The notes beneath the pieces are model-generated. The model was not told the origin of the DNA. It ran no database searches and saw nothing but the letters and a program-made list of their open reading frames with translations. Below are positions 4,428-15,737 of a stretch of 44,334 nucleotides of DNA, in pieces. Made by a program: the position numbers and the translations under genes. Position 1 is the first letter of the stretch. Every line of letters starts with the position of its first letter. This DNA is from Sorangiineae bacterium NIC37A_2 (GTDB lineage Bacteria > Myxococcota_A > Polyangia > Polyangiales > Polyangiaceae), in the NCBI GenBank assembly GCA_002085155.1, contig NASX01000041.1, forward strand, positions 1 to 44,334, in the 5' to 3' direction.

Positions 4428-5048
4428 TCAAGCCCGGCCCTTGGCCCGGAGCGCTTCGCTGAATCCGTAAATGTAGCTGGCGGCGCTCACCAAGGAGAAG
4501 CCGAGCGAGATATAGACGAGGGCGCGTCCAGCCACGACCAGGTCGACCACCCCAAAATCGAAGGGGAAAAAGCCAATCTGGTACGGGTAGCCGATGATCA
4601 GGCACAGGATGCCGACCATCTGGAAGGCGGTCTTGCTCTTTCCGCTGTCTCCGGCCGCGATGATGATCCCCTCGGTGACGGCGATGCTCCGAAGGCCGGT
4701 GATGCTGAGCTCACGGGTGAGCAGGAGCACGACGGCCCAGGCAGGGATGCGCCCCATGGACACGAGCCACACGAGCGTCGCCATGACGAGCAGCTTGTCA
4801 GCGAGGGGATCCAGGAACTTTCCGAGCACGCTCACGATCCCCATGCGTCGCGCCAGGATGCCGTCGAGCAAATCGGTGATGGCCGCGCCGCCGTAGACGA
4901 GCGCGGCGTAAACACAGTCCTCAGGCGTTGCCCGGTCGAGGAGCCAGAGCACCAGAGGGATCGCCACGATTCTTCCCATGGTGAGCAGATTGGGAAGGGC
5001 GAGCGCGTCAGCGGCGAGGCCGCGCGGTCTTGGGGCTGTGGATGCCAC
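4428..5048 (-). CDS. pgsA: CDP-diacylglycerol-glycerol-3-phosphate 3-phosphatidyltransferase
   Basis: PgsA makes phosphatidylglycerophosphate, the committed step to phosphatidylglycerol and cardiolipin, in the inner membrane. The CDP-alcohol phosphotransferase motif DGx2ARx8Gx3Dx3D is complete: D62, G63, A66, R67, G76, D80, D84. The 206-residue chain carries several hydrophobic helices, as expected. The subfamily call (PgsA rather than phosphatidylserine or cardiolipin synthase) rests on the N-terminal LPNLLTMGRIVAIPLVLWLL and the overall length. It lies 118 bp after hisH and heads a tight three-gene run with the Cys-rich protein and the EpmA-like gene. Confidence 0.93.
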   Translation of the reverse strand: MASTAPRPRGLAADALALPNLLTMGRIVAIPLVLWLLDRATPEDCVYAALVYGGAAITDLLDGILARRMGIVSVLGKFLDPLADKLLVMATLVWLVSMGRIPAWAVVLLLTRELSITGLRSIAVTEGIIIAAGDSGKSKTAFQMVGILCLIIGYPYQIGFFPFDFGVVDLVVAGRALVYISLGFSLVSAASYIYGFSEALRAKGRA

Positions 5049-5166
5049 GGGGCTTACGATAATCGAAAGAAAGCGAACATGAAAAGCCGGGGACTCCGGT
5101 CTCGCGAGGGGCCCTACAGGGCGGGACTTTCGCGGTCAGGCGGGGCCGAGGGGCGCGGGCGCCCGG

Positions 5167-5793
5167 TCAAAGAGCGAGGAAACGGCCGAGGAGCTTCTGG
5201 CCGGCGGCCTGGCTCTTTTCGGGGTGGAACTGGGTCGCGATGACGTTGTCACGAGCGACCGCTGCCGTGACCCTGGTCGAACCGTGGGTCGCGGTGGCGG
5301 CGATGATGGAACGATCCTCGGGGACCGCGTGGTAGGAGTGGACGAAATAGAACCAGAGGTCGCTGGGTCCGAGGTCCCGGAAGACCGGGTGGGCTGTGGG
5401 CTCGATCTCGATGCGATTCCAGCCCATGTGGGGGATCTTGATGCCGGGCTCTTCGCGCAGCTTCTGGCAGGAGCCCGAGAACCATCCGAGGCCTTCGACC
5501 CCCGGCGCCTCTTCACTGCTCGCGAAGAGGGCCTGGAGGCCGAGGCAGATGCCGAGGTAGGGGGTTCCTTTTTTCATGGCTTCCACGAGGGAGTCACCGA
5601 CGCCGCTGCGGATCCCGGCCAAACAGTGGGCGAAGCCGCCCTGGCCGGGGACCACGAGTTTATCCGCCGAGCGGACGTCCTCTGGAGTGCGCCCGCGCAC
5701 GATGGTCACGTCGCTCCTCGGAGCCGCCACCTCGAGGGCGCGGCACACCGAGGTCATGTTCGCGTGGCCCGTCTCAACGACTACGACGCGCAT
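5167..5793 (-). CDS. hisH: Imidazole glycerol phosphate synthase, glutaminase subunit
   Basis: HisH hydrolyses glutamine and passes ammonia to HisF, forming imidazole glycerol phosphate in histidine synthesis. The class I amidotransferase triad is present: nucleophile Cys83 in LGICLGLQ, and His190 with Glu192 in QFHPEKS. The PHMGWN motif (121-126) is diagnostic of HisH. Length is normal at 208 residues. The N-terminal motif is unusual: VVVETGHANMTSV where most HisH have IxDYGxGNLxSV, and VPGQGGF where VLPGVGAF is usual. It starts inside the hisB stop codon (TGATG). hisA and hisF are not in the window, so the pathway is split. Confidence 0.93.
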   Translation of the reverse strand: MRVVVVETGHANMTSVCRALEVAAPRSDVTIVRGRTPEDVRSADKLVVPGQGGFAHCLAGIRSGVGDSLVEAMKKGTPYLGICLGLQALFASSEEAPGVEGLGWFSGSCQKLREEPGIKIPHMGWNRIEIEPTAHPVFRDLGPSDLWFYFVHSYHAVPEDRSIIAATATHGSTRVTAAVARDNVIATQFHPEKSQAAGQKLLGRFLAL

Positions 5794-6380
5794 CAGTCGA
5801 GGCTTCCCTTCGTCGAGGGGATTTGGTCCCCGTCGACGCGCACCGCATCGCGCAGCGCACGGGCGAGGGCCTTGAAGGCGATTTCGGTGATGTGGTGCAG
5901 GTTCTTCCCGGCCTCCTGCACGACGTGCAGGTTGATCTGAGCCGAGCGCGCGAGCGCCTCAAAGAAGACCTCCGCGAGCTCCGTGTCCCACTGTCCGATC
6001 TTCGCCTTCGGCATGTCGACGTCCCAGACGAAGAACGCGCGTCCCGAGAGATCCAAAGAACAGCTCACGCGCGCCTCGTCCATGGGGAGAGTGGCGTGAC
6101 CGTAACGATTGATCCCGCGGCGATCGCCGAGCGCTTCACGCAGCGCCTGGCCGAGCACGATGCCGACATCTTCGGTCGTGTGGTGACCGTCAATGTGGAC
6201 GTCGCCTTCGGCGCGCACCGTGAGGTCGAAGCGGCCGTGACGGGGCAGCTGCTCGAGCATGTGAGACAAGAAGGGCAGCGGCGTCACGATGTCGTGGCGC
6301 CCGGTTCCGTCCAGGTTTACCTCGACCGTGATGCGGGTCTCGCTCGTTTCTCTCCGGACGGTGGCTCGGCGTTCGCTCAT
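5793..6380 (-). CDS. hisB: Imidazoleglycerol-phosphate dehydratase
   Basis: This is a monofunctional IGPD of 195 residues, without the N-terminal phosphatase of the E. coli bifunctional protein. It removes water from imidazole glycerol phosphate to give imidazole acetol phosphate. Both manganese-binding motifs are intact: HHTTED (66-71) and NLHHITEIAFKA (160-171). The C-terminal IPSTKGSL is also typical. Translation is coupled to hisH (TGATG overlap), and the gene begins only 4 bp after the upstream lipoprotein gene. Confidence 0.95.
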   Translation of the reverse strand: MSERRATVRRETSETRITVEVNLDGTGRHDIVTPLPFLSHMLEQLPRHGRFDLTVRAEGDVHIDGHHTTEDVGIVLGQALREALGDRRGINRYGHATLPMDEARVSCSLDLSGRAFFVWDVDMPKAKIGQWDTELAEVFFEALARSAQINLHVVQEAGKNLHHITEIAFKALARALRDAVRVDGDQIPSTKGSLD

Positions 6381-6384
6381 GACC

Positions 6385-7143
6385 TCAAAAGCTTTCGATT
6401 TTCCAGGTGCCGCCCTCTAGCACAAGACTCGCGGTCCGTCCCTTGCCGTAGGCGACCGCTGCGCGCACTCCAAGGAGCTCGATGGGCGCGTCGTCGACCG
6501 CGAGCCGGAGACTGTCGAGGGCCGAGGCGAGGGAGCCGGGGCCAGGGCTCGTGAGGGCCTCTCGGAGCTCAGCCTCGCTCAGCTCCTTTCGGCGCGCCTC
6601 AGGCATCAGGCGATGGACAACATCCATGCGCCCTGCGTCGAAGGCGGAAATGAGCGAACGGAGAGCTTCACGGGGAGTGCGCGCCGGGTAGACGTCGATG
6701 GCCTCAGGCGGAACGCGCCATTTCCCATCCTCGTAGACAAGGAGGATCCCCGGACCACAGCTGGTCGTGACGATGGTCTTCGGCGTGCCGTCGCCTCGGG
6801 TCAGGGCTTCAGCGAAGGCGCGCACAGAAGCGGGGGACTTTCGAGAGAGGTCGCGGAAGGCCGCGCGAGAGATGCCGAGGCGGGCCTCCGAGCTCAAGAA
6901 CTCATAGGCGCGGTCCGGATCGCCTTTGTCGAGGGCCCGCGTGTACGCGGCGAGGGCAGCCTCGGGCGTTTGGGCGTTTGTTCGAGGCGCGCAGGCGGAC
7001 AAGAGAAGGGCGAAGAGCGCCCATTTTGTCCCCTGTGCCCCAAGCGCGTGCCCCCAGCCAGAGCAAATTTCTGGTTTTTGGTGTCGTTTGGGGTGCGGCT
7101 GCGCGGACACGAGGATAGGATTCCCGACGAATGACTCGTGCAC
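6385..7143 (-). CDS. Probable lipoprotein, unknown function
   Basis: The protein has a short hydrophobic stretch and lipobox (WALFALLLSAC, Cys51 counting from the ATG), then a 200-residue soluble domain. The domain contains two similar halves, each ending in a GxW strand (EDGKWRV and EGGTWKI), which hints at duplicated NTF2-like folds. The start is unclear. The only ATG (7143) overlaps the divergent lon start by 13 bp and gives a signal region that is too long. A GTG at 7110 is the best alternative but still leaves about 40 residues before the Cys. It is the first gene of the hisB-hisH run, 4 bp before hisB. I know of no link to histidine synthesis. Confidence 0.65.
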   Translation of the reverse strand: MHESFVGNPILVSAQPHPKRHQKPEICSGWGHALGAQGTKWALFALLLSACAPRTNAQTPEAALAAYTRALDKGDPDRAYEFLSSEARLGISRAAFRDLSRKSPASVRAFAEALTRGDGTPKTIVTTSCGPGILLVYEDGKWRVPPEAIDVYPARTPREALRSLISAFDAGRMDVVHRLMPEARRKELSEAELREALTSPGPGSLASALDSLRLAVDDAPIELLGVRAAVAYGKGRTASLVLEGGTWKIESF

Positions 7144-9527
7144 AAGGGGCCCAGAAACCGGAGCGGATCGCTATCCTTCCTCTTCGGAACTCCGTCCTGT
7201 TTCCGCGATCGGTTGTCCCGATCAACGTTGGTCGCCCCAAGAGCGTGCGACTCGTCGAAGAGCTCGAGGCGGGCGGAGGCCTGATCGGCGTTGTTGCTCA
7301 GCGAGATCCTCAGACGGTCGATCCGACCTTCGACGACATTTACACGGTGGGGACCGTCGCGCGGATCGTCCGGGTCATTCGGATCAGCGCCACGAACTAC
7401 TCCGTCGTTCTGAATGGAATCGGCCGTTTTCACGTCACTCAGCCCCTCGGCGTTGAGCCCTATCTCCGGGCGGAGGTCGTCCGAGTCTCCGATCCGACCG
7501 AGACCAGCCCCGAAATCGAGACCCTGGCCGGAGAGCTCCGGGACAAGACGCGGCAGGTGCTCGCGCTCACGCCGAACCTCCCGAAAGAGACCCAGAGCAT
7601 CCTCGACAATGTCGAAGAGGCGGGCAGTCTCGCCGACCTCGTCGCTTCGAACTTCCCCGAGGAGCTCGCTCAGGTTCCCGTGCGTCAGCGAGTGCTTGAA
7701 GCCTACGGAATTCGCGAGCGGCTCGAGATTGTGACGAAGGTCCTGGACCGTCAGCTCGACGCGCTTCGGATCAAGGCTGAGGTCTCGAACATGGTCGAGA
7801 CGGAGATGAGCCGGAATCAGCGCGCTTACGTGCTTCGGCAACAACTCCGGGCGATCCGGGAAGAGCTCGGGGAGAGCCCCGACGAGGACGATGAGGTGGA
7901 GCAGCTCCGGGAGCGCCTCGCGCTCATGGACCTGCCGACGGAAGCGCGCGACGTTGCCCGAAAGCAGCTGTCGCGGCTCGCTTCGATGCAGAGCCAGTCC
8001 CCCGAGTACCAGATCGCGCGCAACTACGTGGAGTGGATTTTGGACCTCCCATGGAAGGTCTCGACCCCGGATCTCCACCTCATCTCTGAGGTTCGGCGCT
8101 GTCTCGACCAAGATCACTACGGCCTCGAGCTCGTCAAGAAGCGCATCATTGAGTTCTCAGCGATCCGTGCCCTGCGCCAGGACAACCGAAGTCCGATCCT
8201 GCTCTTCGTCGGCCCGCCTGGCGTCGGCAAGACCTCTCTCGGCCGCTCGATCGCCCGCGCCATGGGGCGCCGCTACGCGCGCATTGCCCTCGGCGGCGTC
8301 CGCGACGAAGCGGAGATCCGCGGCCACAGGCGAACGTACGTTGGGGCGCTCCCCGGGCGCATCCTCGCAGCGCTGAAGAAGGTCGGAGCGAACAACCCGG
8401 TGTTGGTGCTCGATGAGATCGACAAGATGGGTGCGGACATGCGTGGCGATCCGGCCGCGGCGCTGCTCGAGGCCCTCGATCCGGCCCAGAACGATTCCTT
8501 CGTCGATCATTACCTCGACTTGCCCTTCGATCTCTCGAAGATCACCTTCCTCGCCACCGCGAACAGCTTCGGGGCGATCCCTGAAGCTCTCCGCGACCGC
8601 CTCGAGGTGATCGAAATCCCGGGTTATACCCCGATCGAGAAGCGCGAGATCGCGAGGCGCTTCCTGATCCCGAAGCAGCTCGAAGAGCACGGCATCGCCC
8701 CCGAACGTCTGACCTTCACCGAAAGCGGCATTCAGACCATCGTCGACTCCTATACGCGGGAGGCCGGCGTGCGCACCCTCGAGAAGCGCATCGCCGCGAT
8801 CTGTCGCGAGATCGCCGTCAAAGAGGCGGAGGGGGAAATCCAGGCGGTCGAGGTCACCCGGACCGTCGTCGAAGAGATCTTGGGGCCCCCGGAGTACCGT
8901 CTCGAGACCACCGAGATCGCTCCCGCGCCGGGCATCGCAGCTGGGCTCGGAGCGAGCGGAGCCGGAGGAGAGCTGGTCATCGTGGAGGTGAGTCGGATGC
9001 CCGGGAAGGGGAACATTCGGCTCACGGGGAGTCTCGGAAAGGTGCTCGAAGAAGCGGCCCATACGGCCGTGAGTTTCGTGCGTTCGCGGGCTGACCGGCT
9101 CCACCTGAGCCCCGAATGGCTCAAGGACATCGATGTTCACATCCACGTGCCACGGGCGCGCGCTGTGCGCGATTTTGCTGGTCTCGGCTCGGCGATCTTC
9201 GCCGCGCTTTGTTCGCTCTTGCTCGGTGTGCCCTGCAGGAATGACGTTGCCGTCGTCGGCGAGCTCACGCTTCGAGGAGCAATTTTGCCTGTCAACAACG
9301 TGAAGGCGATGCTCCTCGCGGCGCATCGGGCGGGTGTGACGGAGGTCATCCTTCCGGCTCGCAATGAGGCGGATGTGAGTGAGGTCTCCGATGAGATCCT
9401 CGCGAATTTGAGGATTCGCTACATCTCTCACGTCGATAGTCTTCTCGGTTTGATCTTGTCCCCCGACGCTGCGCGCGCTTCTTCTGCGCCCGCCCAGCCG
9501 GGGCCGGCCGCAGCGCCGGCACTCTGA
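7131..9527 (+). CDS. lon: Lon-family AAA+ protein lacking the catalytic serine
   Basis: The 798-residue product has LonA architecture: N-terminal substrate domain (about 12-210), coiled coil, AAA+ module with Walker A GPPGVGKT (361-368) and Walker B VLVLDEID (424-431), then a C-terminal protease domain. Active Lon has KDGPSAG around the nucleophile Ser. Here the ungapped match is RDFAGLG (680-686), with Gly684 at the Ser position. The partner Lys is kept (Lys725 in [14 protein letters not shown]), although the usual GG before it is NN. The surrounding DVHIHVP and [12 protein letters not shown] blocks align without gaps, so misalignment is unlikely. I predict ATP-driven unfolding, chaperone or DNA-binding activity without Ser-Lys proteolysis; another active Lon should exist elsewhere. 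It is the first gene of a three-gene operon. Confidence 0.93.
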
Positions 9528-9537
9528 GCTCGCCGGC

Positions 9538-11652
9538 ATGTTTCTGCTCAGGGGACCGGGGTACGAGCTGGCCCTCGTCTTTGGGCTCGTGGGGCCCTTC
9601 GTAGCGAGCCTCTGGGTCGCGCTCGGGCGCTCGCGCGCCCCGGTCTTCGGCAGCCTCGCGCGCGGCGCCTGGGTGAGCGCAGCCGTGCTCCTGGTCGCGT
9701 TCTTAGGCGGTCTTCAGAGCCCGGCCTGTGAACGGGGTCAGGCCTATGCGCTCATGCTGCTCGGGCCGACGCTCGGGACCGTCCTTGCGGCTCTGTGCAC
9801 CGAGGCGGCGCTTTTTGCACGTCTGCGATCCGCCAAGCTCCAGCGGATCCCGCGCGCGCTGATCGGGCTCCTGGTGCCGCTCGCTCCGATCTGTATCGGG
9901 CTCTACGGGATCTACGCGTCCCCCGCGGTGTTTGCGTATAGTGAGTTCGTGGGTTACTTCGCTGGGCCCCTTTACGACCGTGTGGAGTACCGCTTCGAGA
10001 CGCTGCTCAGCTATCGAGCCGGCTCGATTCTCCTCGGAGTGGGTCTGAGTCTCCTGCTCCGCAAGCAGGCGGTTCGGCTTGGGATCCTCTGTTTGGGCGG
10101 CTATTTCCTGGTTCGCTCGCTCGGCGATCAGCTGGGGCACGAGACGAGCGCCGAGAGCTTGTCTCGGGCCCTTTCGGGTCAGGTTCGCTTCAACGGTTGT
10201 TTGGTGACCTACGCGGAGGAGAAGACAAGCCGCGCCGAAGCGGAGCTCATCGCGCGGGAGTGCTCGGTGCACCTCGGCGAGCTCGCCGAATACTTCGAGG
10301 TCGAGCCCGAGCGGGAAGTTCTTGTGCGGCTCTTCGGGAGCGTCGAGGAGAAGGCCCGCTGGACCGGGGCAGGCCGAACTTACGTCGCGAAGCCCTGGCG
10401 CGGCGAGATCTACGTGCATTCGAGCGGCTACCCTCATCCGACGCTCCGCCACGAACTCGCGCACATCGTGGCGGCTCGCTTCGGACGGGGACCCTTTCGC
10501 ATCGCAGGCGAGCTCGGCGGATGGATCCCCGATCCGGGACGCATCGAAGGTTTTGCTGTGGCTGCCGCTCCCCACGAAAACTCCGACGGGACGCTCCTTG
10601 AGTGGGCCCGGGCTCAAGTTGTGGTGGGCGCGATGCCGCCGCTCCGGCGACTCTTTCAGTTCGGATTCTACGGGGAGTCTTCGGCGCGCGCCTATGGAGC
10701 CGCGGGAGCCTTCATTGCCTACCTGCGCGAGGAGTACGGCGCGGGGGCGCTGCGCGCTTGGTACGGCGGAGCGGATCTCGAAGAGCTCACGGGCCAATCG
10801 ATCGCCGAGCTGGAGCGGGGGTTTCATCGAGCCCTCGAGCGCGAGACGGTCCCCGAGGTAGTGCAGAGCGCGGCGCGGGCCCGTTACTCGGGCCCGGCGA
10901 CCCTCGAGAGGATCTGTCCCCACGCCGTCGATCGCATCTTGGCTCGAGCGGAGCGCACCTGTTCTCTCGATCCCCGCGCCGCGGAGCGCTTGGCGAGCCA
11001 GGCTTGGACCTGGGAGCCCCGGGCGCGAGAGGCTTCCCTGTTCCTCTCGCGCTGCTACCTGGGCGCGGGAGCCTCGGACGAGGCGCGACGTTTGCTTGGT
11101 CCGGTGCCCGGTGAGCCTCCTTGGACTGAAGAGCAGAAGCGTGAGGGGCGCGCTGACCTCGATTGGCTCGAGGGGCGCGCTGAGCGGGCCCTGGACGCTT
11201 ATCGGGAGCTCCTCTCGGAGGCTTCTTCGAGCGGCCAGCGCAGGGCTCTTTGGCTGAAGATTTGGGCGCTGACGGACGCGCGCGGCTCGGCCGATGAAAC
11301 GCTGGTTCGGGAGCTTCTTGCCCGCCGCGCGGGGCCCGTCGAGATTGTGAGCTATTTGGCCCAGAGCGCCGAGAGCGAGGAGTCTGAGTTTCTTCGGGCC
11401 TATCTGCTCGGGCGCGCGCTGCTGTCCCTCGGTCAGCCGGGGCCGGCGGCGGACGCATTTCTGCGCGCGCAGACGGAAAGGGCACCGAGTCTCGAGTTTG
11501 AGCAGGAAAACGAGCGAAGTTTGATGGTGAGTTTGTGTCAGGCGCGCCGCTCAGAGGAGGCGAAACAGGTCTTCGAGTCCCTGGATCTTTCGACGCGCAG
11601 CGCGGCCCGGAGGCTCGAACTGGAGGGGATCCAAAGGCGGTGTTTGCCATGA
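9538..11652 (+). CDS. Membrane gluzincin-like protease with C-terminal helical repeats
   Basis: This 704-residue protein has about five or six hydrophobic helices in residues 1-200, then a soluble domain with a zinc-protease motif HELAH (305-309). A downstream Glu337 in RIEGFAVAA fits the third zinc ligand of gluzincins (peptidase MA-like superfamily). The C-terminal part (about 440-700) is Ala/Leu/Arg-rich and helical, resembling TPR-type repeats. The gene starts 10 bp after lon and its stop overlaps the next gene (ATGA), so the three are one operon. A zinc protease beside a Lon that cannot cut suggests a paired quality-control role, but that is inference from context alone. Confidence 0.75.
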   Translation: MFLLRGPGYELALVFGLVGPFVASLWVALGRSRAPVFGSLARGAWVSAAVLLVAFLGGLQSPACERGQAYALMLLGPTLGTVLAALCTEAALFARLRSAKLQRIPRALIGLLVPLAPICIGLYGIYASPAVFAYSEFVGYFAGPLYDRVEYRFETLLSYRAGSILLGVGLSLLLRKQAVRLGILCLGGYFLVRSLGDQLGHETSAESLSRALSGQVRFNGCLVTYAEEKTSRAEAELIARECSVHLGELAEYFEVEPEREVLVRLFGSVEEKARWTGAGRTYVAKPWRGEIYVHSSGYPHPTLRHELAHIVAARFGRGPFRIAGELGGWIPDPGRIEGFAVAAAPHENSDGTLLEWARAQVVVGAMPPLRRLFQFGFYGESSARAYGAAGAFIAYLREEYGAGALRAWYGGADLEELTGQSIAELERGFHRALERETVPEVVQSAARARYSGPATLERICPHAVDRILARAERTCSLDPRAAERLASQAWTWEPRAREASLFLSRCYLGAGASDEARRLLGPVPGEPPWTEEQKREGRADLDWLEGRAERALDAYRELLSEASSSGQRRALWLKIWALTDARGSADETLVRELLARRAGPVEIVSYLAQSAESEESEFLRAYLLGRALLSLGQPGPAADAFLRAQTERAPSLEFEQENERSLMVSLCQARRSEEAKQVFESLDLSTRSAARRLELEGIQRRCLP

Positions 11653-12899
11653 GGAGGGCTGTCCTCACGAGCGCCGCGTGGGGCGTTTTCTTGGTGATCG
11701 GGTGCAAGAAGACCGACCCGCCGCCCCCGCTGGAAGAGCCTCGGACAGCTCCTGCGCCGTCCGAGCCCGAAGTGCAGCTCGAGGCGCGCTCGGACACTCC
11801 ACCGAGCAGAGTGGAGCTGAAGCCCGAGGCGTGCCCGGAGGGGATGGCGGACATCCCCAGGGGGACCTTCTGGGTGGGCTCGACCGGACGGACCTACGGA
11901 GATGAGGAAAATCCGCGCTTTCGCACGAAGGTTCGGGGGTTCTGCGCAGATGTGCACGAAGTGACCGCGGCGGAATACGACGCCTGTGTGAGTCGGGGGA
12001 AATGCCCCGTCCCCGCTGGCACCAAGCAGAGCCGCCGCTGCACGTCGGGTCAACCAGGGAAAGAAGATCACCCTATCAACTGCATCACATATGCTGAAGC
12101 TGAGGCCGTGTGCGCAGACCGGGGCGCACGCCTGCCGACGGAGATCGAGTGGGAGTATCTGGCGCGCGGGGGCGCTGAGATGCGAAAGTTCCCTTGGGGC
12201 GAGGTGAGCCCCGACGGGCACACTTGCTGGAAACACTCGGAGACCTGCAAGGTGAAGAGCTACGAGCCCGGGGCTTTCGGGCTCTATGACGTTGGGGGCA
12301 ACGTCTGGGAGTGGACTTCGAGCTGGTTTGCGCCCTATCCGTGGCCCGCGGCGACCGGGCGCCACCGGGTGTACCGCGGAGGGAGCTGGAGTCGCCGCTT
12401 CGACAAGTGGATGAAGCCGACCTTGCGAAGTCGCGGCAGGCCTGACGATTCCGGGTCACACCTCGGGGTCCGCTGCGTCTTCGACAAACCGTCTGAACCG
12501 TGCCCCTACGGGAGCGACGAGGCGGGAGGCTGTTTGTTTGGGGTGGATGAGGTCGAGTGTCTCGACGGGAAAGTCTGGAACGGGCTGCGCTGCGCGAAGG
12601 CGGGTGCGACCGGCTGCGAAGAGGGAGCGCGTGAGGTCCCCGGGCGAGGTTGTGTGCAGGAGCGTTCGAGCGTGTTGGGGAGCTCAAACAAGGGCGCCTC
12701 TGCGCAGAGCGCCGCCAAGGTGACGCGCGAGCGTTCCCCGTCTTTTGATGAAGACTGTAGAGCGAACCAGCCGAGTCGCCCCGTCGCCTACAAGTACACG
12801 GGCGGGGAGCACGTGGAGCGCAATCAGGCGGGGAAACGCGACGGCTGTAAGAATCGCGACGTGGGGGTCGGCTGGAACTCGGCCTGCTGCCCGAATTGA
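11649..12899 (+). CDS. SUMF1/FGE-domain lipoprotein
   Basis: A lipoprotein signal (LVIGC, Cys19) and a Pro/Glu-rich linker lead to a formylglycine-generating-enzyme-like (SUMF1, C-type-lectin-like) domain at about 62-282. Recognisable blocks are IPRGTFWVGS, LPTEIEWEYLARGG, GLYDVGGNVWEWTSSW and VYRGGSWSRR. The last ~130 residues are Cys-rich and Lys/Arg-rich. Most bacterial SUMF1-domain proteins of this kind are not sulfatase activators; many are surface or signalling partners, and no sulfatase gene is in the window. The ATG at 11649 overlaps the previous stop (ATGA), which fixes the start and the operon. Confidence 0.85.
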   Translation: MRRAVLTSAAWGVFLVIGCKKTDPPPPLEEPRTAPAPSEPEVQLEARSDTPPSRVELKPEACPEGMADIPRGTFWVGSTGRTYGDEENPRFRTKVRGFCADVHEVTAAEYDACVSRGKCPVPAGTKQSRRCTSGQPGKEDHPINCITYAEAEAVCADRGARLPTEIEWEYLARGGAEMRKFPWGEVSPDGHTCWKHSETCKVKSYEPGAFGLYDVGGNVWEWTSSWFAPYPWPAATGRHRVYRGGSWSRRFDKWMKPTLRSRGRPDDSGSHLGVRCVFDKPSEPCPYGSDEAGGCLFGVDEVECLDGKVWNGLRCAKAGATGCEEGAREVPGRGCVQERSSVLGSSNKGASAQSAAKVTRERSPSFDEDCRANQPSRPVAYKYTGGEHVERNQAGKRDGCKNRDVGVGWNSACCPN

Positions 12900-12969: not shown

Positions 12970-14569
12970 TGGCCCGAGAAGAGCTTTGGATCGCGTCGCT
13001 CGTGGCCGCCGCCGTCTGGGCCGCGTCGCTTGCGCGCGCTCTTGCGTCGACTTCCTCGGTCGGACGCGCCGCGAGGGAGAGGCCCGGGCCGAGCTTCTTT
13101 TCAGCGTCCCGGAACTGGGTCGCGATCTGACGCCAATCGAGGGCAGCCCCCGGCGGAAGCACGAGTCCCCGCAAGTAGGCCAGATTGAAGGCGGCTGCGC
13201 CCGCCAAAGGACCTGTGCCCCGAGCGATCTGCTCGAGCGCTTCGGAGCTGCCCAGGGAAAGACCCACGAAGGAGCCCCGGCGCATCAACTCAACGGGACC
13301 ATTGGGACCTGTCGCAAGCGCCGCTCCGAGCGCTCTGATGAGCTGCGCTTCGGAGAGGAGAGGTGAGCTCTCTGTGATGGTCTTGGCCAGATCGGCCGCG
13401 GCCACAAAATCGCTCGAACGGAAATAGGTTCGCCCCTTGTGGAAACGGGTCCAGGCCAGCGTCAGGCGTTCGCTCTCGCTCAGATCTGCGGGCAGGGCTT
13501 GGTCCCATCCGGCCGGAATGCCCCGCGCGGAGGCCGCGGTGAGGAGGAGACCTGTGACCCGGGCGTCTCCGAGCAGGAGCGGCAGGTAAGGGGAGGGGAC
13601 GCTCGACGCGATCGCTTCGGCAGCGGCCGCGGGCGAAGGCGCTTGAGCCTTGGGAATCAGCAGAGAGTCGATGGCCTTCAGGCGCGAGCCACCGAAGACC
13701 TGCACGAGCAGGTCCCGCGCGAGATGGACCCGCGCATCGAAGACCACGCCTGCGCGCTCGAGCTCGATGAGCCCGACCAAACTCGCGTCCCGTCCGCGAT
13801 TCTTCCGCGCGTCGAGAGCTTCCTCGAGGGAGGAGTAATAGACCTCTCGGACCTCTTCATCTGCGAGCATCTCCTCGGGAAGCGGAACCTCCCGGACGAG
13901 ATTCACGAACCGCATATCGGCCATGCCCGCCTCGACCGCCGCGATTCCACGCGCGTAACCCCGAAGCTCGGAGCCTTTGCGGGCGAGACGCTCGAGAGCG
14001 ACAGCTTCTCGCTTCGCCCAGGGGAAGACCTCTTGTTCGAGGAACTGGACGATCGCCGCCTTCTTCCGATCTTGAGGTGCGCCGGGCAGCTCGTGGGCCA
14101 AACGGCGAAGTCGTGCGGAGATCCCGTAGGCGAGCAGGAGCTCTCTCACGCCGCGCGAGACCTCGTCTTTGGCTCCTTCGCCGACCACGGAGGCCACCAG
14201 CACGTCCCCACACTCCACAGGACCGAGCTCCGCGCGGAGGGCACGAATCAGACCTGGCTCGAATTCGGAGCAGCGCTCGAGAGAGGCGAGCGCCGCTGAA
14301 GGCTCAGACGCCGTGACGGCGGAGGCCAAGAGGTTCAGGGCCCCATCGCAGCTTTCCCGGGCGGGCAGAGGCTCGCCGGGCGTGCACGAAGCGGGCGCGG
14401 GCGGCACCGCCTCGTCGAGGGGGCCGAGCACGTCTCGCTCCGCTGCAGCACGTTTCTCAGGGGGCGGCGCAGAAACTTCGGAGCCGCTCGAAGCGCTCTT
14501 CGGCGGCGGGGGAGTGCTCGCCCCGCACCCGGCGAGGACGAGCACACTCGCTGCGAATAGAATCCTCAC
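12962..14569 (-). CDS. Large lipoprotein, unknown function
   Basis: This 535-residue protein starts with GTG at 14569, overlapping the stop of the FKBP gene (GTGA). It has a clear lipoprotein signal (FAASVLVLAGC, Cys15), a Pro/Ser/Glu-rich linker and then a long Ala/Leu/Glu-rich region that looks all-helical, with several helix-turn-helix pairs like TPR or Sel1 solenoids. I cannot assign a family. It is translationally coupled to the tandem FKBP lipoprotein, so both may work in the periplasm or outer membrane on protein folding or assembly. Confidence 0.7.
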   Translation of the reverse strand: MRILFAASVLVLAGCGASTPPPPKSASSGSEVSAPPPEKRAAAERDVLGPLDEAVPPAPASCTPGEPLPARESCDGALNLLASAVTASEPSAALASLERCSEFEPGLIRALRAELGPVECGDVLVASVVGEGAKDEVSRGVRELLLAYGISARLRRLAHELPGAPQDRKKAAIVQFLEQEVFPWAKREAVALERLARKGSELRGYARGIAAVEAGMADMRFVNLVREVPLPEEMLADEEVREVYYSSLEEALDARKNRGRDASLVGLIELERAGVVFDARVHLARDLLVQVFGGSRLKAIDSLLIPKAQAPSPAAAAEAIASSVPSPYLPLLLGDARVTGLLLTAASARGIPAGWDQALPADLSESERLTLAWTRFHKGRTYFRSSDFVAAADLAKTITESSPLLSEAQLIRALGAALATGPNGPVELMRRGSFVGLSLGSSEALEQIARGTGPLAGAAAFNLAYLRGLVLPPGAALDWRQIATQFRDAEKKLGPGLSLAARPTEEVDARARASDAAQTAAATSDAIQSSSRAKN

Positions 14570-15486
14570 GAAACGTCCAAGAGCTCCACGTCAAAGGTGA
14601 GCTGACCCGACGGCATGCCTGGCCGCGGCGGGGTCTCTCCATAGGCGAGATCTGCGGGGATCCAGAAGCGGAACTTCGCTCCCTGCTTCATGAGCTGGAG
14701 GCCCTCAGTCCAGCCGCGGATGACGCCGTTGAGCGGGAAAGAAGCGGGTTCACCGCGCGTCACCGACGAGTCGAACAGCTTGCCGTCTTTGGTCCAGCCG
14801 GAATAGTGGACAGTCACGGTGCTCTCTTCGGTCGGTTTCTTGCCATCGGCTTTGCCCGGTGAGAGCTCGATGTACACGAGACCCGAAGCGGTCTTCTTTG
14901 CACCCGGAGGCGGAACCGCCACGTCTTTCGGCGCGGCCGGGGGGACCTTCAAGAGCTCGATGTCGAAGGTGAGCTGACCTGCGGGACGACCGCCCATAGG
15001 CGTCTCACCGTAAGCGAGCTCAGCGGGGATCCAGAAGCGGCGCTTCTCTCCCTCTACCATGAGCTGGACGCCTTCGGTCCAGCCCTTGATCACGCGGTTC
15101 AGAGGAAACGAAGTCGGCTGTCCGCGGACGACCGAGCTATCAAACATCTTCCCGTCTTTGGTCCAGCCGGTGTAGTGCACCGAGACCGTGTCCGTCGGAC
15201 CTGGGTGCGTCGTGCCCGTCCCTTTTGTGAGCACCTTGGAAGCGAGACCCGACGCGGTCTTCTCAGCATCCGCGGGCGGCGCGGCGACGTCTTCCGGGGC
15301 AGGGATGGCTTCGGGTTTCGGCTTCTCAGCCCCTTTGTTGGCGCTATCGGTCGTCACTTCTTTTTTCTCCTGGGCTGAGGGTGTGGAGCTCGTCGAATCT
15401 CCGGGCTCCTGGGAACGACGCGAACACGCGAGGGAGGAGGCGAGCAGAGCGACAGTGATCCATCGGACCGTCGGGGACTGATTCAT
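14566..15486 (-). CDS. Tandem FKBP-type peptidyl-prolyl isomerase lipoprotein
   Basis: The 306-residue protein has a signal with Cys21 as the lipidation site (LLASSLAC), an acidic linker, and two complete FKBP domains at about 80-184 and 205-306. Each carries the family blocks VxVHYxGWTKDGKxFDSSV, FPLNxVIxGWTEGxQLM and FWIPAxLAYGE, so both could catalyse cis-trans proline isomerisation. The two domains are close copies, pointing to internal duplication. The ATG at 15486 is chosen because it gives a proper lipoprotein signal; longer starts do not. A 251-bp divergent gap separates it from the SGNH lipoprotein. Confidence 0.93.
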   Translation of the reverse strand: MNQSPTVRWITVALLASSLACSRRSQEPGDSTSSTPSAQEKKEVTTDSANKGAEKPKPEAIPAPEDVAAPPADAEKTASGLASKVLTKGTGTTHPGPTDTVSVHYTGWTKDGKMFDSSVVRGQPTSFPLNRVIKGWTEGVQLMVEGEKRRFWIPAELAYGETPMGGRPAGQLTFDIELLKVPPAAPKDVAVPPPGAKKTASGLVYIELSPGKADGKKPTEESTVTVHYSGWTKDGKLFDSSVTRGEPASFPLNGVIRGWTEGLQLMKQGAKFRFWIPADLAYGETPPRPGMPSGQLTFDVELLDVS

Positions 15487-15737
15487 GGGGGCGGAGCATT
15501 GTGGAAACTCCGCCGCTTGACCAGAGGTTTGGTAGTCCCCGGGCGGCACCTCGATTTTTCGAACCATGCTCATAGCTTTTCTGGTTCAGGTCGGTTGGTG
15601 TGGGATGGGACTCTGGCGGTTGGTCCAGGCTGGGACTTGTCGGATGCACGAGGGGCCGCCGGTCTCATTGTCGCCGCCTGGAGAGGTCAGTGAGGGGCCG
15701 CGCGGGGGCGCCATCGACTCGGAGTGGCCTTTTTAGT

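Follow-up and report, generated by a model that had tools for sequence, protein, structure and literature searches.

The lon3 locus

We analyzed a 44,334-nucleotide stretch of contig NASX01000041.1 from Sorangiineae bacterium NIC37A_2 (family Polyangiaceae, order Polyangiales), which we call the window. It contains a gene for a LonA-type AAA+ protein, which we named lon3 because its product belongs to a third group of Lon paralogues (Lon3). This gene heads an operon, in which it is followed by a gene for a seven-transmembrane (7-TM) protein with an HExxH domain and TPRs (hereafter, the partner) and by a gene for an FGE-like lipoprotein. The partner gene starts 11 bp 3' of lon3. The original prediction for this DNA placed this gene first in an operon that includes a membrane zinc protease; gene order and motif bear this out. 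The features are listed here with their coordinates in the window.

6385-7143, minus strand: divergent small lipoprotein-like gene, a conserved neighbor of lon3 within the family; the actual start is probably below 7131
7131-9527, plus strand: lon3, LonA-type AAA+ protein of 798 aa with a predicted dead protease domain (ORF, domain, profile, and model evidence)
8211-8234, plus strand: Walker A GPPGVGKT, residues 361-368, invariant in 136/136 Lon3
8400-8417, plus strand: Walker B VLVLDE, residues 424-429; D428 and E429 invariant in 136/136 Lon3
9168-9188, plus strand: degenerate nucleophile motif RDFAGLG, residues 680-686, canonical form KDGPSAG (alignment)
9180-9182, plus strand: GGT codon for Gly684, at the catalytic Ser position (alignment)
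9255-9257, plus strand: Val709, in place of the active-site Thr (T704 in E. coli; alignment)
9294-9305, plus strand: NNVK, residues 722-725, canonical form GG-x-K; Lys725 kept (alignment)
9538-11652, plus strand: partner, a 7-TM protein with a predicted periplasmic HExxH metallopeptidase-like domain (H305, E306, H309, E337) and TPRs
10450-10464, plus strand: HELAH, the HExxH motif of the partner; all partners read as far as this site have HExxH
11649-12899, plus strand: FGE-sulfatase-like lipoprotein; its ATG at 11649 overlaps the partner stop by 4 bp

The small lipoprotein gene belongs to a minus-strand group at 4428-7143, divergent from lon3, that also includes pgsA-like, hisH, and hisB genes. 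In much of the family, hisB and hisH adjoin lon3, and in Sorangium- and Polyangium-like genomes the small lipoprotein gene is reversed. Farther downstream, the minus strand at 14566-15573 encodes an exported-looking protein with two tandem FKBP-type prolyl isomerase domains. An Rfam scan of the window returned no match, nor did a promoter scan, which is uninformative in a GC-rich genome.

Domain layout and active site of Lon3

The window Lon3 has the complete LonA layout of N domain, AAA, lid, and Lon_C on a single chain, with LON_substr_bdg, AAA, Lon_lid, and Lon_C all above the Pfam cutoffs. On the NCBIfam profile for "lon" endopeptidase La (TIGR00763) it scores 789 bits against a cutoff of 608, so automatic annotation would label it an active protease. 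The protein is 40 to 45% identical to LonA of other phyla. An AF2 model (pLDDT 82) has the fold of solved LonA, and a fold search with this model placed Ser-to-Ala Lon hexamers among the nearest solved chains.

The interval singled out in the original prediction (9117-9335) corresponds to residues 663 to 735 of the lon3 product. When we aligned the protein with solved Thermus-type LonA chains, there were zero gaps across the protease active site. As predicted, Gly684 occupies the position of the Ser in KDGPSAG, the dyad residue Lys725 is present, and the GG that normally precedes it is NN. Asp681 and both His residues of DVHIHVP are also kept. The active-site Thr has been replaced as well (Val709), a change that the original prediction overlooked. 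A genome from the same genus (G001) carries the motif QDYAGLG, with the identical Gly at the Ser position; therefore, the substitution is not a one-off error of sequencing or base calling. We considered S687, which adjoins the motif, as a displaced nucleophile and rejected it, as this residue is V in the nearest relative. The motor, which had been described as intact, is indeed so: Walker A and B, the pore-loop Tyr, the sensors, and the Arg finger are all present. Given its sequence, the window Lon3 is very likely inactive as a protease. The window protein is a LonA by architecture, but by the dyad that defines the class, as read from the alignment, it is not a LonA protease.

Lon3 among the Lon paralogues of the order

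Lon3 is present in nearly all the genomes that we searched from the family and order of the window. A scan of contigs from other genomes mostly matched ordinary LonA from other phyla. The original prediction had proposed looking for a canonical lon in the same genome, and two further full-length Lons were found there, both with KDGPSAG and the dyad Lys. The dyad is likewise canonical in all 20 Lon1, Lon2, and Lon4-like sequences taken from eight further genomes in the order. Among the Lon paralogues of the order, only the Lon3 group decays. Some genomes of the order have four or five full Lon paralogues (L234, L235, L238, L241, L244), with a canonical dyad in all except Lon3.

The presence of canonical Lon1 and Lon2 in the same genome raises the question of whether dead Lon3 is a regulatory or dominant subunit, joining active Lon1 protomers or competing for their substrates and so tuning proteolysis. 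In Lon assembly a sixth protomer is added, and inactive protomers can poison the ring (PMC10643698). We regard this explanation as unlikely, given that Lon3 and Lon1 are only ~49% identical, that there is no evidence of mixed rings, and that the conserved operon would be left unexplained.

Repeated loss of the catalytic dyad

We aligned 136 Lon3 sequences and recorded the residues at the two dyad positions. The Ser position is S in 107, A in 22, G in 5, N in 1, and C in 1; the Lys position is K in 124 and R in 1, it is lost in 10 (T, P, I, S, or Q), and it is unsequenced in 1. Overall, Ser and/or Lys is missing in 36 of the 136 sequences, a recurrence that strengthens the original prediction of a lost catalytic Ser. 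Over the same set, Walker B, the pore Tyr, sensor 1, the Arg finger, and sensor 2 are 100% conserved, in line with the invariant Walker A.

Parsimony required 13 changes between dead and intact states on the full tree, which was built without the protease domain, and 10 on a reduced tree that included class-level outgroups, although parsimony alone cannot separate loss from regain and the inner branches are partly weak. Within the 26-member clade that contains the window, six changes at the Ser position were counted by parsimony on a mixture-model tree, and an AU test rejected a single clade for the four Gly-bearing sequences of this clade (P = 0.0002). The window Lon3 branch is unusually long (0.45 to 0.75, compared to 0.11 to 0.18 in the same-genus relative), and its partner protein is also fast-diverging. 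Class-level Lon3 sequences (G312, G485) and all sister Lon groups carry KDGPSAG, which indicates that the intact dyad is ancestral and its loss derived. By parsimony, the dyad has been lost independently at least about 10 times in Lon3. Most Lon3, including those of Sorangium-like genomes, appear from their sequences to be proteolytic; therefore, the core task of the group may be proteolysis, with the loss being local.

Conservation and predicted topology of the partner

In about 101 of the 136 loci, the partner gene is the same-strand neighbor of lon3, often with a 4-bp overlap, as in a Sandaracinaceae MAG (L073). Sorangium-like genomes are examples of genomes with no partner beside lon3. The partner consists of seven predicted TM helices followed by the HExxH domain and then TPRs. 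Among 89 aligned partners, H305, E306, H309, and E337 (the third ligand) never vary. Its charge pattern is N-in/C-out, with positive residues on the N-terminal side and four invariant cysteines on the outer side; the HExxH/TPR domain should therefore be periplasmic. In three genomes (G044, L160; G092, L116; G093, L114), the partner carries the FGE-like lipoprotein as a C-terminal fusion (48 to 49% identity), and fusion of an exported protein agrees with an outside C-terminus. The Peptidase_MA_2 match in Pfam is weak (2 of 6 relatives, best E value 0.025), and searches of the PDB and NCBIfam found no homologue of the peptidase domain, only TPR matches. An AF2 model of the partner from two sequences was poor (pLDDT 45), and we did not use it.

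Outside the order, the partner occurs in 208 of 377 genomes of the phylum, but not beside lon. In the three such loci whose surroundings we read most closely (L256, L257, and L258, from G188, G308, and G254), it lies in a recurring cluster of exported proteins. The cluster contains a large protein with a signal peptide, joined at two of these loci by small lipoproteins, and after these comes another exported HExxH protein, of about 915 to 953 aa. That its neighbors outside the order are exported proteins rather than lon suggests that the partner is an envelope protein that became the neighbor of lon3 in this order.

An adjacent partner was found for 34 of 35 dead Lon3 and 67 of 86 active Lon3 (Fisher P = 0.007); because this association is not significant when phylogeny is allowed for, we make no claim from it. 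Distances for Lon3 and the partner are correlated (partial r = 0.77 given hisB, 22 genomes), which is suggestive of coevolution, with one slow gene as the sole control.

The original prediction held that the neighboring membrane protein could supply cutting. Together the two proteins would then be a split AAA+ protease, in which dead Lon unfolds substrates and the partner cleaves them, like ClpX with ClpP. The gene order conserved over the order and the invariant metal-site residues are what such a division of labor would lead one to expect, but the same gene order accompanies active Lon3, and elsewhere in the phylum the partner is found away from lon. Because Lon3 and the HExxH domain are predicted to lie on opposite sides of the inner membrane, we consider a split protease quite improbable.

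Pattern of erosion and selection

Three clades of Lon3 show different patterns of loss. In clade I, which contains the window, K680, G682, P683, M708, T709, I712, G722, and K727 are replaced even in members that retain the Ser; the Ser itself has become G, C, A, or N, or else the Lys has become Q. In clade II, the Lys is lost in all nine members (T, P, I, or S), and the GG is lost alongside it. In clade III, Ala replaces Ser in 19 of 31 members. The conserved protease-domain (P-domain) positions most often lost in the window clade fall mainly in active-site segments (K680, G682, P683, A685, M708, T709, I712, G722, and K727). The canonical group has 55 conserved P-domain positions, of which 36 to 39 remain at least 90% conserved in each clade (39 in the window clade). 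In these clades, the losses fall mainly in active-site segments, with the fold and the motor retained.

Pairs of dead Lon3 have dN/dS values of 0.02 to 0.31 across the N, AAA, and P domains (pairwise Nei-Gojobori), which overlap those of active pairs. For the window and G001, the values are 0.19, 0.24, and 0.24 (N, AAA, and P), although dS is high and these values are less exact. No relaxation of the protease domain was seen: the P/AAA dN ratio is 0.85 to 2.1 in dead pairs, within the 0.4 to 3.1 range of active pairs. Because the dead P domain is constrained about as much as its active counterpart, it should still serve a purpose, probably by forming a second tier in the ring. Dead Lon3 genes are maintained and are not pseudogenes. 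With a catalytic residue lost and both fold and gene under purifying selection, these proteins have the properties of pseudoproteases.

These data bear on three further explanations. The first is that Lon3 acts on DNA, with its protease domain turned into a DNA-binding scaffold as in RadA, ComM, or BrxL. A DNA-binding Lon was among the options in the original prediction, and Lon-like domains are used by DNA ATPases elsewhere (PMC11612176, PMC10164562). We found no gain of basic charge: the mean net charge of the P domain is the same in the window clade as in canonical Lon3 (-0.2 in each; -1 in the window protein). In addition, the N domain for protein substrates and the pore Tyr are retained, and the operon is without DNA-related genes; a role on DNA is thus very unlikely. 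The second, that Lon1 and Lon2 make Lon3 redundant and the gene is on its way to being lost by drift, could account for the many different letters at active-site residues and for the long branch of the window protein. The full-length open frames, low dN/dS in all domains, invariant ATPase residues, and near-universal presence in the order argue against decay, which is largely refuted by purifying selection, and we give it very little credence. The third, that Lon3 still cuts by means of another nucleophile or assisted catalysis, is suggested by the retained Lys725, Asp681, and His residues, but it is hardly credible given that relatives without the Ser have no conserved Ser, Thr, or Cys nearby, that S687 is not conserved, and that the Ser site itself has come to hold Ala, Gly, Asn, or Cys.

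Relationship to known Lon proteins

Lon3 shares its four domains, their order, its length, and its fold with LonA (MEROPS S16, TIGR00763), but the dead window protein has neither the catalytic Ser nor the active-site Thr nor the GG that precedes the Lys. LonB, in contrast, has a membrane segment in its AAA module and its own nucleophile motif, whereas Lon3 has the LonA layout with an N domain; the window Lon3 scores far below the cutoff on the LonB profile (TIGR00764). Like the window Lon3, LonC (the Meiothermus taiwanensis Lon-like protease) has lost one of the two activities of Lon, but it is the mirror image: LonC keeps the dyad and is without canonical AAA+ motifs and ATPase (PMC3391209), the reverse of the pattern in the window Lon3. 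In RadA, ComM, and BrxL, the Lon fold likewise serves as a ring scaffold, and BrxL has no obvious Lon active-site motif (PMC10164562); however, these proteins are distant, have other ATPase domains, and act on DNA, and Lon3 has no charge change that points to DNA.

Also similar are the engineered mutants E. coli S679A, MtaLon S678A, and LONP1 S855A, in which the Ser has been removed, the ATPase is kept, and substrates are bound and held. Unlike these mutants, dead Lon3 is natural and recurrent, its active site is further eroded, and selection maintains it within a conserved operon. Several LonA paralogues in one genome are familiar from myxobacterial LonV and LonD/BsgA, as in the genomes with Lon3. 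Within the literature accessible to us, no paper describes a Lon paralogue whose dyad has been lost repeatedly in nature, and none a third myxobacterial Lon paralogue losing its dyad. A survey from 2008 counts 2 inactive homologues among 117 Lons, with no analysis of them in the text available (PMC2605481).

Proposed function

Taken together, these results lead us to favor the view that dead Lon3 is a natural Lon pseudoprotease, probably a nonproteolytic cytosolic unfoldase or holdase tied to an envelope module. Lon3 would assemble into the usual LonA hexamer, its N domain would bind substrates, and its intact AAA+ motor would pull or unfold them. The Ser nucleophile is gone, as are the Thr and the GG around the Lys; hence the protein would be unable to cut, and we infer that it would be inactive in vitro. 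The protease domain would remain as a folded ring that closes the chamber, so that Lon3 acts as an ATP-driven cytoplasmic holdase or unfoldase that releases or sequesters its clients. The conserved place of lon3 at the head of the operon suggests that these clients lie in or near the envelope module, and they may belong to it or control it; a functional link to the partner would follow.

In E. coli, Lon that has been inactivated sequesters substrates; in yeast, inactive Lon supports the assembly of membrane complexes. Casein binding persists in MtaLon S678A, which closes into a substrate-bound hexamer (PMC10643698), and human LONP1 S855A retains an ATPase-dependent anti-aggregation role (PMC8368198). 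Since Lons without the Ser keep binding and anti-aggregation activity, client handling driven by ATP without cleavage is the most likely function for dead Lon3. The unfoldase or chaperone role named in the original prediction fits this evidence and the behavior of the Ser-to-Ala mutants. A bolder proposal, which we offer tentatively and think rather unlikely, is that this Lon lineage has repeatedly switched from destruction to nondestructive remodeling, with cytosolic Lon3 spending ATP to pull, assemble, or gate a dedicated module of the 7-TM periplasmic metallopeptidase and the FGE-like lipoprotein, and its chamber becoming dispensable once the partner is in place.

Lon is the textbook one-chain AAA+ protease, and what is known of its nonproteolytic chaperone role comes largely from mutants engineered to carry Ala in place of the Ser. 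In Lon3, nature has removed the cutting site about 10 times and left the motor untouched, with close active orthologues available for comparison, which makes the group a natural experiment on the work of Lon in the absence of cleavage. The group also shows that part of a common gene family is wrongly labeled "endopeptidase La," and it links Lon to an uncharacterized envelope operon. The repeated loss of the cutting site with an unchanged motor suggests that the cell uses dead Lon3 for the handling of proteins, not for their destruction.
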